From positions 1 through 45,858 of the forward strand of contig WANW01000033.1 of NCBI GenBank assembly GCA_015521615.1: a stretch of DNA of 45,858 nt, in the 5' to 3' direction. Shown one piece after another: positions 6,929 through 25,057 of this stretch. The position numbers and the translations under genes were made by a program. The notes below the pieces were generated by a model that made no database searches, was not told where the DNA came from, and saw nothing but the letters and a program-made list of their open reading frames with translations. Numbering within the stretch: the stretch's first letter is position 1; each line of letters opens with the position of its first letter. This DNA comes from Candidatus Hydrothermarchaeota archaeon (lineage in GTDB: Archaea; Hydrothermarchaeota; Hydrothermarchaeia; Hydrothermarchaeales; BMS3B).

Positions 6929-7031
6929 TTTCCCACCTATCTAAATCTTGGCGTGATGGCTTATTAATATTTTCTCTTTCATTATAAAAAAATTAAAAGA
7001 CGGTAGAAAGATTGTTGAATACTGAAGGGTA
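6929..7031. promoter_or_regulatory. Divergent promoter region
   Basis: An AT-rich block separates two divergent genes. On the plus strand ATTATAAAAA (6981-6990) fits a TATA box about 45 bases before the ATG at 7032, leaving a short leader with an AGGGT ribosome site. On the minus strand the AT-rich TTATTAATATTTT (6961-6973) can serve the helical protein starting at 6928. Confidence 0.5.
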
Positions 7032-14059: not shown

Positions 14060-14860
14060 TTGCTGACAAAGCGGATAATTCCATGCCTTGACGTGAAGGA
14101 CGGGCGAGTGGTAAAGGGGGTGCACTTCAAGAACCTGCGCGACGCGGGCTCGCCGGTGGAGCTGGCGAAGCACTACGATGAGCAGGGCGCCGACGAACTG
14201 GTGTTCCTGGACATTAGCGCCAGCCATGAGGGCAGGAAGACGATGCTGGATGTGGTTAAGGCAACTGCCGACCAGGTCTTTATACCCCTTACTGTCGGCG
14301 GCGGAATAAGCGAGGTAGAGGATGTACGCAGGATTTTAAAGGCGGGCGCCGACAAGACAGCGATAAATACGGCGGCGGTTAAGAACCCTGAGCTGATCTC
14401 AAAAGCGGCGCGCAGATTCGGGAGTCAGTGTATAGTCTCAGCCATAGACGCGAAGAGGGTTTATGAGGATAGAGAGGACCGCTATGTCGTCGAGACACCG
14501 CAGGGAAAATGCTGGTTTGAGGTTTATATCTACGGCGGACGCAGGGGCACGGGTAAAGACGCCATCGCCTGGGCGAAGGAAGTCGAGGCTCTTGGCGCTG
14601 GTGAGATACTGCTCACCAGCATGGATGCAGACGGAACAAAGATGGGCTTTGACATCCCTCTAACCAGAGCCGTGGCTGAGGAGACGGGAATACCCGTCAT
14701 CGCCAGCGGCGGCGCGGGCGAGCTGGAGCACTTCTACGAGGCCTTCGCTTATGGCAAGGCTGATGCCGCCCTTGCGGCAAGCGTGTTCCACTACGGTAAA
14801 TACACAGTGGAGGATATTAAGACCTACCTGAAGGCTCGCGGGATAGAGGTGAGGCTTTGA
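14060..14860 (+). CDS. hisF: Imidazole glycerol phosphate synthase, cyclase subunit
   Basis: 266-residue TIM barrel. It takes ammonia from HisH and closes the imidazole ring in histidine synthesis, releasing AICAR. Catalytic aspartates lie in [14 protein letters not shown] (near residue 11) and in [12 protein letters not shown] (near 177). Phosphate-binding loops include VGGGIS and ASGGAG. The start is a TTG with AAGGTGGT four to five bases upstream; the family's usual ML(A/T)KRIIPCLD fits. The TGA overlaps the next gene's TTG (TTGA). Confidence 0.96.
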
Positions 14861-15750
14861 GGGGTCAGGAGGCAGAACTTTCTGCAAAGGAGTTGAGGTT
14901 TGCTCTGATATTCACCCTCGGGATTTTTGTGGTCGAGGTGGTCGGGGGCGTAGTTTCCAACAGCCTCGCCCTGCTCAGCGATGCCTCACATGTGTTCAGC
15001 GATGCCTTTGCTCTTGCCCTGAGCTACTTGGCGATAAAGATAGCCTCTCGTCCGCCAAGCCTGAGCCGGACCTTTGGTTACCACCGCGCTGAGGTGCTTG
15101 CAGCGCTGGTAAATGGTGTGCTCCTCCTGGGAATCTCCCTTGCCATTTTCCACGAGGCATATCAGCGCTTTCTCTCCCCGCCGGATATAAAGCTGAGAGA
15201 GATGCTTGGGGTGGCTGTTTTCGGCCTGGCGGCAAACCTCTTTGTAATGTTCCGCCTCCGCGAGCATGCACACGAGGACATAAACATACGCGGCGCCTTT
15301 CTGCACGTTGTTGGGGATACCCTGGGGAGCGTGGGCGTGATTGTTGGTGGAGTGGCTATCTACCTCACAGGTAATACCCTTGCCGATCCCGCGGTGAGCG
15401 CCTTTATTGCCGCAATAATTGCAGTGGGAGCGCTGAGGCTGGTTGTGGAGTCGCTGCACATTCTGCTCGAGGGCACGCCAAGGCATGTGGATGTGCTTGC
15501 TCTGAAGCGCTCTCTGGAGAGCATAGCTGGCGTTAAGGATGTGCACGACCTGCATGTGTGGGCAATATGCTCACACATCAATGCCGCGAGCGCTCACATA
15601 TCAGTGGAGGATCAGATGATAAGCCAGCTCGAGAAAATTCAGCGTGAGGTTAATGAAAAATTTAAGGAGTACCGGATAAACCACACCACCCTGCAGTTTG
15701 AGTGCGTTGGTGAAAGGTGTGAAACAGGCGAGGGGCACGGGAGCTTTTAA
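14857..15750 (+). CDS. Cation diffusion facilitator (zinc-type) transporter
   Basis: 297 residues with about six transmembrane helices and a C-terminal cytoplasmic domain. Helix 2 has [13 protein letters not shown] and helix 5 has [11 protein letters not shown], the H/D metal-site pairs of zinc-preferring CDF exporters. A cytosolic loop carries HAHED. The C-terminal ferredoxin-like domain contains [12 protein letters not shown]. It exports divalent metal by proton antiport. The TTG start overlaps the hisF stop by four bases, so it is co-transcribed with hisF although functionally unrelated. Confidence 0.93.
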
Positions 15751-15920
15751 TATCGTCTCTGTTTCATGTTTTAACGCAAAATTACACATTTTTTCGCGTC
15801 TTATGAATATGCAGGTAAATATCCTATCATATTTAAACGTTTTCAACGGTTAAGTATAAATATGTCTCTTTTTACTACAAATACCACAAATTTAGTAGTT
15901 ATAACTGAATTAAGGAGGCG
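15751..15920 (+). promoter_or_regulatory. Promoter and ribosome site of the membrane ferredoxin operon
   Basis: AT-rich gap without a gene. AGTATAAATA (15853-15862) fits a TATA box, giving a start near 15882. The perfect 10-base palindrome AGTTATAACT is at 15897-15906. AAGGAGG at 15912-15918 is a strong ribosome site, but no ATG, GTG or TTG in the following gene's frame lies within reach of it. T-rich runs around 15789-15796 may end the preceding transcript. Confidence 0.55.
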
Positions 15921-15926
15921 ATTGAG

Positions 15927-16451
15927 ATTTCACGGCAAAGGATTGTTGCTCTGATTCTATTTCTGCTCGCGCTGAGCGTGACCGTGGCAGCGGGCTACTA
16001 CAGGGGCAGCCTCAGAAAGGCGGAGTCGGTGCACTTTGGTCTGAACTTTCCGGCGCCTGAGGGCAAGGGCAAGAAGGTGGTGCTGTACTATAATGAGCAG
16101 GGCCTTCTTAAGAAGCTACTTCAGCCGGGAGTTGTGGAGATAGGCAGCCACAGGATAAAGAATGTGGGTAGCAGGAGCTACGTGGTGAGGCTCGAGCTGG
16201 TGAATATCCCGCAGGGCGTGGAGGTGATCTGGGAGACCAACCAGCTCGCCTGGGACGAAGCCACGAAGACGCTGCGCAGGCCACTGAAGCCCAGGCAGAG
16301 GTTCGGGATGAGCTGGGTCTTCCACATCCCAGAGGAGCTCAGAGAAAAGCCTGTGATATACGACGGCGGGCTCAGGGTTATTGACGCGGAGACGGGGGAG
16401 CAGCTCGCCTTTCTCCCTATAAAGATTGTGAACAGGGGTGAGGCAAGGTGA
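15927..16451 (+). CDS. Membrane-anchored beta-rich protein, first gene of a ferredoxin module
   Basis: About 174 residues if it begins at ATT 15927. The frame from there reads ISRQRIVALILFLLALSVTV, a classic N-terminal anchor or signal, which is lost if the first canonical codon (GTG 15978) is used. AAGGAGG lies eight bases before ATT 15927, and an in-frame TGA at 15906 bounds the frame. The outside part (~30-174) has no Cys or metal motif. Its repeating strands (SYVVRLELVNIPQGVEV, then RFGMSWVFHIPEEL) suggest an Ig-like beta sandwich. It overlaps the polyferredoxin gene by four bases (GTGA). I do not recognise a family; it could stand in for the Ig-like C-terminal domain of CcoG/FixG. Confidence 0.6.
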   Translation: MSRQRIVALILFLLALSVTVAAGYYRGSLRKAESVHFGLNFPAPEGKGKKVVLYYNEQGLLKKLLQPGVVEIGSHRIKNVGSRSYVVRLELVNIPQGVEVIWETNQLAWDEATKTLRRPLKPRQRFGMSWVFHIPEELREKPVIYDGGLRVIDAETGEQLAFLPIKIVNRGEAR

Positions 16452-17305
16452 ACAACCGCCACCTCATGTACAGGGTGCTGGCGTTGCTGCTGGGAATACT
16501 CCTGTTCTACGCCCCCTTTGCGCTCCTGGTGAAGGCGACGGCGCAGCTGCTGGAGAGCCAGGGGCTGATATATGTGGTGGGCGATGTGCACAGAGCTTGC
16601 TTAAGGATGCCCATCAACTGGGCCTTTCTCGACCCCGGAAAGCTTATTGCGAGGGTGCTCATGAATCCCCTCTATCTCACCGTCTTTATCCTGGCGGTGC
16701 TCTCCTTCTTCCTAGCACCGCTCTTCTGCGGCTGGCTCTGCCCGGCGGGCAACATACCTGAGCACCTGAACCGCTTTGTACCGCGCAGGCTGAAGCTCAA
16801 CCTCAGGGGGAAGCTCGACCCTGCTCCAATAAGGTACGGATTCCTTGTGGGCTTCATACTATCCCCAAAGCTGGGTGGGAGCATCGCCTGCTCCTTCTGC
16901 AACTACTCCCAGCTTCAGAGGGTGCTGAGCGCCGTCTTCGGCGACTTTCACGCCCTGGCTTACTGGAGCTCCACTGCGATTATAACCTTCGCACTGTGGT
17001 TCTTTGTCCTCGGGGTCTTCATCGACGGCGGCAGGGGCTGGTGCAACTTCGCCTGCCCTGCGGGAGCCCTGCAGAACCTCTTCCACAGGGTGGGTTCTAA
17101 GCTGCCCTTTACCCTCAAAATCAGGTTCTTCAGGGACAGGTGCAACGACTGTGGCAGGTGCGTGGACGCCTGCCCGACCTGGGCGATACGCGAGGCACGC
17201 AACAGTATTTCTGTGAACCGCTTTGTGTGCAATGCCTGCAAGGACTGCGTTGTCGCCTGTCCCAACGGCGCCCTCGCCTACTCTCGCGGTGGAGAGGCTG
17301 AGTGA
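16448..17305 (+). CDS. NapH/CcoG-like membrane polyferredoxin
   Basis: 285 residues with about four to five transmembrane helices. The NapH/NosR/CcoG-type motif FCGWLCPAG (C94, C98) and a second CNFACPAG (about residues 199-203) lie near membrane edges, with CSFC near 148. Two [4Fe-4S] ferredoxin motifs follow: CNDCGRCVDACP (C232, C235, C238, C242) and CNACKDCVVACP (C261, C264, C267, C271). The family moves electrons across or at the membrane to periplasmic oxidoreductases; CcoG reduces Cu(II) for cbb3 assembly. GTG start overlapping the upstream stop. The exact partner is unknown. Confidence 0.85.
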   Translation: MNNRHLMYRVLALLLGILLFYAPFALLVKATAQLLESQGLIYVVGDVHRACLRMPINWAFLDPGKLIARVLMNPLYLTVFILAVLSFFLAPLFCGWLCPAGNIPEHLNRFVPRRLKLNLRGKLDPAPIRYGFLVGFILSPKLGGSIACSFCNYSQLQRVLSAVFGDFHALAYWSSTAIITFALWFFVLGVFIDGGRGWCNFACPAGALQNLFHRVGSKLPFTLKIRFFRDRCNDCGRCVDACPTWAIREARNSISVNRFVCNACKDCVVACPNGALAYSRGGEAE

Positions 17306-17562
17306 TGCTGCGGGAGCTGCGCCAGCGGATTTGGGGCTACCTTGCCGGGATGGGCATCGCCTTCACGGGAGCCCTAGCCTCTGGCGCCGGGAGCGTGCCC
17401 CAGAGGCTCTGCTCCAGTGCCTGCTTTTCCTGCGGCGCCTGCACCCTGGCGGCGCTCCCACTGCTGGCCCTGTTCTTCAGGAAGGCTGAGGGCAGGATGA
17501 GGTATGCGATTCTTGCAATCTCGGCGCTGCTTGTGGTGGTGGCGTATACAACTCTTGTTTAG
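17305..17562 (+). CDS. Tiny four-cysteine membrane protein
   Basis: 85 residues from ATG 17305, which shares one base with the upstream TGA. A conserved-looking cluster CSSACFSCGAC (C36, C40, C43, C46; C-x3-C-x2-C-x2-C) directly precedes a hydrophobic helix (about 47-60), and a second helix covers about 67-84. The spacing resembles half of a ferredoxin motif read in reverse order (normally CxxCxxCxxxC), so it may hold an Fe-S cluster or copper at the membrane face. Co-translation with the polyferredoxin suggests they work together. No family recognised. Confidence 0.65.
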   Translation: MLRELRQRIWGYLAGMGIAFTGALASGAGSVPQRLCSSACFSCGACTLAALPLLALFFRKAEGRMRYAILAISALLVVVAYTTLV

Positions 17563-22893: not shown

Positions 22894-23265
22894 ATGTGCA
22901 AAAACGTGACACCACAGGAAGCATACAACATGATTCAGAGGGATAAGAGTATTGAAATCCTCGACGTTAGAACCCCTCAGGAGTACTATAATGACGGGCA
23001 TATAAAGGGGGCGAAGCTAATCCCCATAAATGAGCTTCAGTTCCGCCTGAGGGAGCTCAACCCAGCGAAGAAGTACCTGATATACTGCCGCACTGGCAAC
23101 AGGAGCGCGCAGGTGTGCAGATTTCTCTCCCAGCTCGGGTTCAAGCATACCTACAACCAGATGGGCGGCATAGTGCAGTGGGTCAGGTATGGGCTTCCGG
23201 TTGAAGGTGGCATGCCATACAGAAGACCACCAGGGTTCTTTACATTTAACCCCTTTGGGCTCTAA
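22894..23265 (+). CDS. Single-domain rhodanese (sulfurtransferase)
   Basis: 123 residues. Rhodanese fold with ILDVRTPQEYYNDGHIKGA and active loop CRTGNRS, whose Cys carries the persulfide. The C-terminus is extended by a Pro/Phe-rich tail (PYRRPPGFFTFNPFGL). No signal peptide, so cytoplasmic. It lies 33 bases before a TauE/SafE transporter gene, suggesting handling of reduced or oxidised sulfur compounds. Confidence 0.92.
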   Translation: MCKNVTPQEAYNMIQRDKSIEILDVRTPQEYYNDGHIKGAKLIPINELQFRLRELNPAKKYLIYCRTGNRSAQVCRFLSQLGFKHTYNQMGGIVQWVRYGLPVEGGMPYRRPPGFFTFNPFGL

Positions 23266-23298
23266 ATTTTTTAATAATCATTCAGGAGGAGGACTCCG

Positions 23299-24447
23299 GT
23301 GAAGAGCTCCGGAAGTGTTGCGGAAATTCTGGTGATGCTCCTGATAATATCCCTCACCGCAGGTAATGCCTTCGCTGCTATGCCGGAGAAGGTGGCGCAG
23401 GCGGTCGCTGAAGGTGGCGTGGATGTGAATCAGGAGCCCGGTTTCCTGGGAATTCCAGGTGCGCCCAGGGTTAACTTAGCCCTCGCCTTTCTGTGGGCAA
23501 TCTTTGTAGGGTGGATATTCTCCACTGTCGGGGCCTTTGGCGGTGTAATGGCAGGCGTGGGGCATCTGACTGTATTCGGACTTGGCGACTTTGCCTCAAG
23601 CTTTAAGAACACCAACCCTGCGCTTAACAAGCTCATAACAGACAGCATACGCGTTTCCAACCAGTGGCTTGTTGGCTTCTCGGCTCTTATCTCCACGCTC
23701 AACTATTACAAAATGAGGCGCATCGTTGTACCCCTGGGGCTGGCGCTTGGCAGCGGGGCTGTAATTGGCAGTCTCGTGACGCCCATCCTCACTGCAGGCA
23801 AGGTCTCCCTGAAGTCCTACATCGGCTACTTTGGCTTATTCACCCTTCTGGTGGGCTTTGTGCTCCTATACGAGAGCACCCCAAGGGCACAGACTTCTAA
23901 AAAGAAGGCAGCAGAGGCGGCGAAGGCGTTTGAGGCGAAAGTAAGGGAGCTCAAAGAAAAGGGCAGGCTGGAGGAGATTGAGAGGGAGGGGGTGCATATG
24001 AGGGAGACCAGCTTAGCGAGGGTAAGCTTTACCTTCTTCGGGCAGGAGTTCAGCTTTAACCCCCTTCTTCCATTCTTCGGTGGCCTTGTGATCGGCTCCC
24101 TGGCTTCTCTCCTTGGTGTGGGTGGCGGCTTCCTGTATGTACCATTCCTCACCAGTGTTGTTGGCTTACCCTACTTCATTGTAGCGGGAACCTCTGCACT
24201 TACTGTGCTAATAGGCATGATAGTGAGCATCTTCAGCTACATGGCTATAAAGGGCACTCCGGTGTACTGGGGGCTCATAGGCGTGGAGCTTCTCGGTGTG
24301 GCGATAGGCTCATACATAGGCCCGAAGACCTCCAAGTACTTCCCGGAGAGGTACCTGAAGGTGCTCTTCGCCATTCTTGCATTCTATGTGGGCATAAGGT
24401 ACCTTACCAAGGGATTCCTGGGCAGGAGCCTCCTTCCTCCCTACTGA
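23299..24447 (+). CDS. TauE/SafE family sulfur-anion permease
   Basis: 382 residues with about eight transmembrane helices. The two half repeats carry FSTVGAFGGVMAGVG (about residue 74) and ASLLGVGGGFLYVP (about residue 274), the family's glycine-rich loops. Between them lies a ~70-residue charged cytoplasmic linker (SKKKAAEAAKAFEAKVRELK) that is not typical of short TauE proteins. The family exports sulfite, sulfoacetate or similar anions. GTG start with AGGAGGA upstream. Placed between a rhodanese and a small membrane protein, it forms a likely sulfur module. Confidence 0.85.
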   Translation: MKSSGSVAEILVMLLIISLTAGNAFAAMPEKVAQAVAEGGVDVNQEPGFLGIPGAPRVNLALAFLWAIFVGWIFSTVGAFGGVMAGVGHLTVFGLGDFASSFKNTNPALNKLITDSIRVSNQWLVGFSALISTLNYYKMRRIVVPLGLALGSGAVIGSLVTPILTAGKVSLKSYIGYFGLFTLLVGFVLLYESTPRAQTSKKKAAEAAKAFEAKVRELKEKGRLEEIEREGVHMRETSLARVSFTFFGQEFSFNPLLPFFGGLVIGSLASLLGVGGGFLYVPFLTSVVGLPYFIVAGTSALTVLIGMIVSIFSYMAIKGTPVYWGLIGVELLGVAIGSYIGPKTSKYFPERYLKVLFAILAFYVGIRYLTKGFLGRSLLPPY

Positions 24448-24448
24448 G

Positions 24449-25057
24449 ATGGCATCTATGAGCTTTGAAACCATATTTTCCGTTATGGATTCCCTGCTCA
24501 TGCCCCTTTTTGAACTCTCAGCAAATCAGGCTAGGGCTTATCTCATAGGTGTACTATTCCTCGCTTTTTTAGCCAATCTTACCGGAGAAGTTTTCACAGG
24601 CATTTTCTTCCAGAGGAACAGGGAAGAGATCATCAGACTTAAGGTGGAGGCAGACAAACTGGGAGTACTCGCGATGCTGGCTCTCTCCGTGGACAACCGC
24701 CAGGCATACGAAGCGTGCAACCGCAGAGCCAACGAGAACTTCGGCAGGCTCTTCTATCTTTCTATAACCATATCCGCCGCTTACCACTGGGCAGGTTTTC
24801 TGGCCCTCGGCTGGTTGCAGTCCCGCTTCATGGGCAGGATAGAGTACCAGCTTCCATTCACCCTTCCAGGTTTTCCTGCAAGTATTGGCTATGCAGGGGC
24901 ATTTATCCTTGCATATGCGCTGGTACATATGCTTTTCAGGCTCGTAAAGCCACATCTCTGGAAGATTCCAGAGGTCTCCGCAGAGGAGGTTGAAAATTTC
25001 ATACTCGGCCCAGAGGAAATTAGGGAGATGTTAGAGCGGTTAAAAAAAGCTAAATAA
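24449..25057 (+). CDS. Three- to four-helix membrane protein of unknown function
   Basis: 202 residues starting one base after the TauE stop. Hydrophobic helices are at about residues 28-52, 100-122 and 143-165. A charged helical stretch (RNREEIIRLKVEADKL) follows the first helix, and the tail is acidic and helical (EEVENFILGPEEIREMLERLKKA). The helix, cytoplasmic coiled segment, helix pair layout recalls the EMC3/DUF106 branch of the Oxa1 superfamily, but I see no diagnostic residues. Tight coupling suggests it assists the TauE permease. It overlaps the convergent cofH gene by eight bases. Confidence 0.6.
   Translation: MASMSFETIFSVMDSLLMPLFELSANQARAYLIGVLFLAFLANLTGEVFTGIFFQRNREEIIRLKVEADKLGVLAMLALSVDNRQAYEACNRRANENFGRLFYLSITISAAYHWAGFLALGWLQSRFMGRIEYQLPFTLPGFPASIGYAGAFILAYALVHMLFRLVKPHLWKIPEVSAEEVENFILGPEEIREMLERLKKAK

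Follow-up and report, generated by a model that had tools for sequence, protein, structure and literature searches.

Gene organization of the locus

The stretch of DNA analysed here (the window) comprises 45,858 nucleotides from a Candidatus Hydrothermarchaeota archaeon. Direct reading of its + strand confirmed three consecutive reading frames that overlap in the manner described in the earlier note. Gene 1 (15927..16451, + strand) encodes a membrane-anchored protein of 174 amino acids with a predicted Ig-like beta sandwich, homologues of which were found in 16 genomes. Gene 2 (16448..17305, + strand) encodes a polyferredoxin of 285 amino acids of the NapH/YccM type with four transmembrane (TM) helices, and gene 3 (17302..17562, + strand) a tiny membrane protein of 86 amino acids with a CX3CX2CX2C motif formed by C37, C41, C44 and C47. 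The GTG start codon of gene 2 at 16448 falls within the stop of gene 1, giving a four-base overlap, while gene 3 starts either at GTG 17302, again overlapping by four bases, or at ATG 17305, overlapping by one.

The frames and overlaps are real, but the start of gene 1 that had been given, 15853, is impossible because the frame contains a TGA at 15906. The ATT codon at 15927 lies eight bases after a Shine-Dalgarno sequence, AAGGAGG (15912..15918, + strand, by direct reading), and is the sole start that retains the membrane anchor. Both elements are conserved in the sibling genome G004, where the Shine-Dalgarno sequence is identical, and translation of gene 1 probably begins at this unusual start codon. 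A CDF cation-efflux transporter gene (14857..15750, + strand; PF01545, E 3e-47) lies 176 bp upstream of gene 1 and is kept in G004; it is reported as context only.

Fold of the gene 1 protein

The gene 1 protein has one N-terminal membrane helix followed by a beta-rich domain and gave no family match in Pfam, NCBIfam or PHROGs, and the profile of its family matched no PDB sequence up to an E value of 10. Several homologues carry Cys/His tails. The AlphaFold model, obtained with 15 sequences (pLDDT 88.9), contained a helix at residues 3–30 and then a beta sandwich. When this model was compared with solved structures using Foldseek it matched a variety of Ig-like folds with modest scores (lowest E value 8.8e-4). 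The FixG-related structure 2r39 was ranked 12th (E 4.8e-3, probability 1.00, rmsd 3.2), and its target-normalised TM-score of 0.53 was the highest among the best 50 matches. By prediction the protein therefore has an Ig-like fold, as had been proposed, and not an unrelated one; the match to 2r39 does not in itself show descent from FixG.

The earlier note had suggested that the three genes may form a split CcoG/FixG system. In such a system the Ig-like domain of a cupric reductase would have become a gene of its own, and the reductase would deliver Cu(I) to the cbb3 oxidase, whose genes lie 15 kb from the module. The similarity in fold to 2r39 favours such a relationship, but comparison of the FixG_C profile with that of the Ig-like family gave a probability of 0.57%, no better than the 0.49% obtained for an unrelated Ig-like control. 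The first protein thus resembles the C-terminal domain of FixG in its predicted fold, with no homology detected in sequence.

The polyferredoxin and its outer-face cysteines

The gene 2 protein contains four TM helices, two CX3CP motifs (C94/C98 and C199/C203) and two ferredoxin-type cluster motifs (C232–C242 and C261–C271), features that identify it as a member of the membrane polyferredoxin superfamily (NapH/CcoG/YccM/NosR type), in agreement with the earlier assignment. The polypeptide ends after the ferredoxin domain and contains no FixG_C domain. Its best NCBIfam match was NapH/MauN (TIGR02163) at 81.3 bits, against a cut-off of 213, and the CcoG model TIGR02745, for which a true CcoG scores 537 bits against a cut-off of 317, was not among the best 25 NCBIfam matches. 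The AlphaFold model of the polyferredoxin was of moderate quality (pLDDT 74), and with Foldseek the ferredoxin part alone matched solved structures, the membrane part having no solved relative. Among the matches listed, a plasmid search with the polyferredoxin returned only NapH/YccM-like proteins of ~26–32% identity. A further polyferredoxin, of the YccM/NosR type, is encoded on contig 51 of the same genome (L016:8833-9876, − strand).

A tree of 26 polyferredoxins placed the module members in one clade with support of 100/100, while the CcoG sequences formed their own group (100/100) and NapH and YccM also fell outside the module clade. The nearest sequences were YccM and a second polyferredoxin from the same genome, with weak support (87/90). 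Like the gene 2 protein, YccM has no Ig-like domain in its polypeptide, and to our knowledge it has no Ig-like partner. Archaeal and bacterial sequences were intermixed within the module clade, which suggests horizontal transfer. Profile comparison of CcoG with the module polyferredoxin indicated homology (96.9%, E 2e-10), a result that favours the split-CcoG proposal but holds for the whole superfamily; the separate grouping of the two in the tree argues against it.

The clade is further distinguished by its cysteines. Cys51 (codon at 16598..16600, + strand) is a cysteine in 14 of the 15 clade members in the tree, and the C148-x-x-C151 pair (codons at 16889..16900, + strand) is invariant, C148 and C151 being present in 15/15 members and occurring together in none of the NapH, CcoG and YccM sequences examined. 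These sequences lack the outer-face cysteines of the module clade, YccM in particular being without C51, C148 and C151. Hydropathy and the positive-inside rule predict that C51 and C151 face outward, that C148 lies at the edge of the membrane, and that the remaining cysteines, including those of all cluster motifs, are on the inside.

The match to NapH raises the possibility of a NapGH-like role, in which the polyferredoxin would take electrons from menaquinol and feed an extracytoplasmic oxidoreductase. NapH/MauN is the best curated match and shares the four TM helices and the TM-ferredoxin layout of the gene 2 protein; the score, however, is far under the cut-off, and neither napG nor a gene for a Nap enzyme or other molybdoenzyme was present in the module loci that were read. 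The genome carries NapA-NapG-NapH-like nitrate reductase genes on contig 89 (L017), apart from the module, and identification of the module as NapGH was rejected because of this separate set. Quinol oxidation of this kind is an improbable function for the module.

The tiny cysteine protein

No family was found for the gene 3 protein, whose CX3CX2CX2C motif sits at the start of a membrane helix. A strict filter located a tiny ORF with the cysteine motif next to gene 2 at 12 of the 15 loci; 238 kb of strand sequence from other parts of these loci contained none. In L025 the motif was present but the ORF failed the strict filter, and in L021 one cysteine of the motif was replaced by TGA; with this TGA variant counted the tiny protein occurs in 14 of the 15 assessable loci, and it was not found in L022. 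The motif across the loci is CX3-6CX2CX2-5C. Most of the genes adjoin that of the polyferredoxin, whereas in Hecatellales the tiny protein is encoded upstream of the Ig-like gene.

The L021 variant, from a member of the Anaerolineae, has its in-frame TGA at position 6956, corresponding to the second cysteine of the motif. A hairpin of -20.7 kcal/mol is located directly downstream of the TGA and SelA is present in the same genome, making this a candidate selenocysteine codon on one low-coverage contig. A selenocysteine at this position would fit a redox or metal-ligand role of the tiny protein.

Distribution of the module

In 16 genomes, from archaea and bacteria that are only distantly related, gene 2 comes immediately after gene 1. 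Given this adjacency, and the frequency of the tiny ORF beside gene 2 relative to its absence elsewhere, the module is a genuine, conserved unit and not a chance gene set. Searches of the window genome were made with individual families or proteins. The Ig-like protein is rare and occurs sporadically: its profile was matched in only 3 of the 394 archaeal genomes surrounding the window and in 2 of 393 genomes belonging to the same class as one bacterial carrier. When 84,980 species genomes were scanned with the polyferredoxin, archaeal relatives appeared in Hecatellales, Bathyarchaeota, Methanomethylicia and a distinct euryarchaeal lineage, and bacterial relatives in Anaerolineae, Dehalococcoidia, Actinomycetota, Coriobacteriia, a delta-proteobacterium (Myxococcota in the tree output) and Rhodospirillales. 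Two Phascolarctobacterium loci contained the polyferredoxin and the tiny protein only, without the Ig-like gene, and in Pelosinus (L035) the polyferredoxin frame is interrupted.

The literature search returned no account of this module. So far as these searches extend, it is an undescribed and distinct variant of the membrane polyferredoxins; the earlier description of it as an archaeal system was too narrow, as bacteria carry the module too.

Relation to cbb3 and other haem-copper oxidases

The copper connection first drawn for this locus rested on cbb3, CcoS and copper ATPase genes in the same window. At the start of the window, family matches confirmed the cbb3 subunits CcoO/CcoP along with a P-ATPase of the copper type; the C-terminus of CcoN and the CcoS candidate are plausible by eye only, the latter having no family match. 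CcoO-like and CcoP-like cytochrome c domains were found in one frame at 282-1280, as a FixO match followed by cytochrome c matches.

The occurrence of cbb3 is patchy within this archaeal genus. FixO, used as the cbb3 marker, is present in the window genome (G000) and was not found in the sibling G004, where the module occupies the corresponding position; conversely G003, G006 and G008 contain FixO and lack the module. Among 15 carriers tested, a COX1-family match was absent in nine, clear in five and doubtful in one, the nine including a single-contig Bathyarchaeota chromosome of 1.5 Mb. Several carrier genomes are drafts, two of them only 0.8 Mb, so that single absences of an oxidase are weak while the overall pattern is not. 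Short repeated PF00115 matches in G044 (C129), and some in G000 and G004, are doubtful, as they occur several times in one frame.

The module is therefore common in genomes with no detected haem-copper oxidase, and coupling to cbb3 or to haem-copper oxidases in general was rejected on this distribution, the module tracking neither. The window genome does encode cbb3, with no FixG_C domain found at E<=0.001, as a split CcoG would predict. The distribution nevertheless largely refutes that proposal, and with gene 2 grouping with YccM/NapH-type proteins a split CcoG serving cbb3 is very improbable.

Gene neighbourhood and metal handling

In six loci (L014, L021, L023, L027, L028 and L029) the module has a DUF4418 gene next to it, accompanied in L014, L027 and L028 by an FtsX/MacB-type permease. 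The Hecatellales genome G105 encodes a fusion of DUF4418 to an FtsX/MacB-type permease, with its ATPase, on a contig other than that of the module (L061). This DUF4418 and permease operon is recurrent, being found at L061:2467-4158 (− strand) and in L014, L027, L028, L059 and L060, and its permease contains a conserved Cys-Cys motif, for example ASCCSVSEMFMVAYDPETDFT. A family search found no DUF4418 in the window genome, so DUF4418 is not essential to the module, and the window locus contains neither an ABC nor a DUF4418 gene. Plasmid searches gave no match for DUF4418 and five weak matches for the permease. In the literature searched DUF4418 appeared in a single paper, where it is listed as a gene in a transcription table.

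Other neighbours point to metal handling, with conflicting indications of which metal. In two bacteria (L030 and L035) a TonB receptor of the siderophore/haem type precedes the polyferredoxin, indicating iron. Copper is indicated by two separate DUF4418 operons of an Anaerolineae genome (L059 and L060), which lie near multicopper-oxidase or cupredoxin genes, and by a regulator neighbouring the module in L023 with a weak NosL-like domain (E 0.0027). A link to copper enzymes through multicopper oxidases was rejected, as a Cu-oxidase_3 match was obtained in only 2 of 16 carriers. Two further observations concern the surroundings of the module. Near it, two distant genomes encode beta-propeller proteins that are related to each other (L014:9098-9916, − strand, and L023:1761-2945, − strand; E 2e-9) and have a Cys-His tail at the C-terminus, and at 22894-25057 the window encodes, one after another, a rhodanese-like protein, an exporter of the TauE/SafE type and a membrane protein without annotation.

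These neighbours bear on whether the module could be a general extracytoplasmic cupric reductase, resembling CcoG or YccM in copper handling and not tied to cbb3. YccM and CcoG are the systems nearest in kind, and a copper P-ATPase is encoded in the window. CcoG reduces Cu(II) and has relatives that occur without cbb3 (PMC7558416), so the absence of a cbb3 link is compatible with general copper reduction. Against this, most carriers show no haem-copper oxidase, Cu-oxidase_3 matches are infrequent among them, the multicopper neighbours come from a single genome and the TonB neighbours are siderophore/haem-like. A general cupric reductase is accordingly considered unlikely, at perhaps one chance in five or so of being correct in the analysts' judgement.

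The FtsX/MacB partner, the outer CxxC and the cysteine-rich tiny protein would also be consistent with a thiol/disulfide or cluster-maturation system, with the outer cysteines passing reducing equivalents to proteins or to a thiol exporter. The analogous FetABCDEF system includes thioredoxins (PMC10783030), but the module contains no gene for a thioredoxin fold, and a relay of this type appears rather improbable.

Proposed function and comparison with known systems

The reading preferred here, with a probability of about 0.5, is that the products of the three genes assemble into a single membrane complex, which transfers low-potential electrons outward. The gene set, its conservation, the cysteine pattern and the predicted fold of the gene 1 protein are results of the analysis, whereas complex formation and topology are deduced from the sequences, and the direction of electron flow would follow by analogy with relatives. 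A cytosolic donor would deliver electrons to the polyferredoxin at its cytosolic ferredoxin domain, which has two [4Fe-4S] motifs, and from the clusters they would pass to the two CX3CP sites. They would then exit at the outer-face cysteine site (C51, C148 and C151), which the CX3-6CX2CX2-5C motif of the tiny protein may complete or serve. The Ig-like protein, held outside by its one-helix anchor, would hold or present the acceptor. The most likely acceptor would be a metal ion in its oxidised form, Fe(III) or Cu(II), or else a metal-thiolate site on which a transporter acts, and in several species this transporter would be the DUF4418/FtsX-MacB ABC system; the choice of a metal is a guess with modest support from the neighbouring genes.

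Polyferredoxins of metal-uptake systems include FtrD of FtrABCD. FtrD has been assigned to no known redox family (PMC11966278). The iron systems FetABCDEF (PMC10783030) and SifABCDE (PMC5449479) bring together membrane redox proteins and ABC transporters of the FtsX type, and the module may be analogous to FetMP-FetABCDEF and SifABCDE in pairing a redox-active membrane protein with a transporter of this type. However, FetA is a DUF2318/YHS protein and SifE is FMN-binding, neither being a polyferredoxin, and no FTR1/P19 gene was seen beside the module in its loci. With CcoG/FixG/RdxA (TIGR02745; FixG_C, PF11614) the module shares a membrane polyferredoxin with CX3CP motifs, homologous at the profile level, and an Ig-like extracytoplasmic part. 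It differs in forming a separate clade, in encoding its Ig-like part by a gene of its own, whose product has no detectable homology to FixG_C in sequence, in the extra outer-face cysteines and tiny protein, and in having no tie to cbb3. The best reading is that the module is similar in design to CcoG or FetA-F but represents a separate lineage.

In wider terms there is a roughly even chance that this is an electron-export system common to archaea and bacteria, built on a polyferredoxin clade with an outer-face cysteine site and on dedicated Ig-like and tiny cysteine (once apparently selenocysteine) subunits, often linked to DUF4418/FtsX-MacB, and that it serves transport by reducing a metal or thiol outside the cytoplasm. 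No role has been assigned to the Ig-like domain of CcoG (PMC7558416). Since the Ig-like subunit is here a separate gene beside the polyferredoxin, its role could be tested by gene removal or co-purification. The module defines a recognisable clade of polyferredoxins with invariant outer-face cysteines, and through it two unannotated gene families and DUF4418 gain a testable common function.
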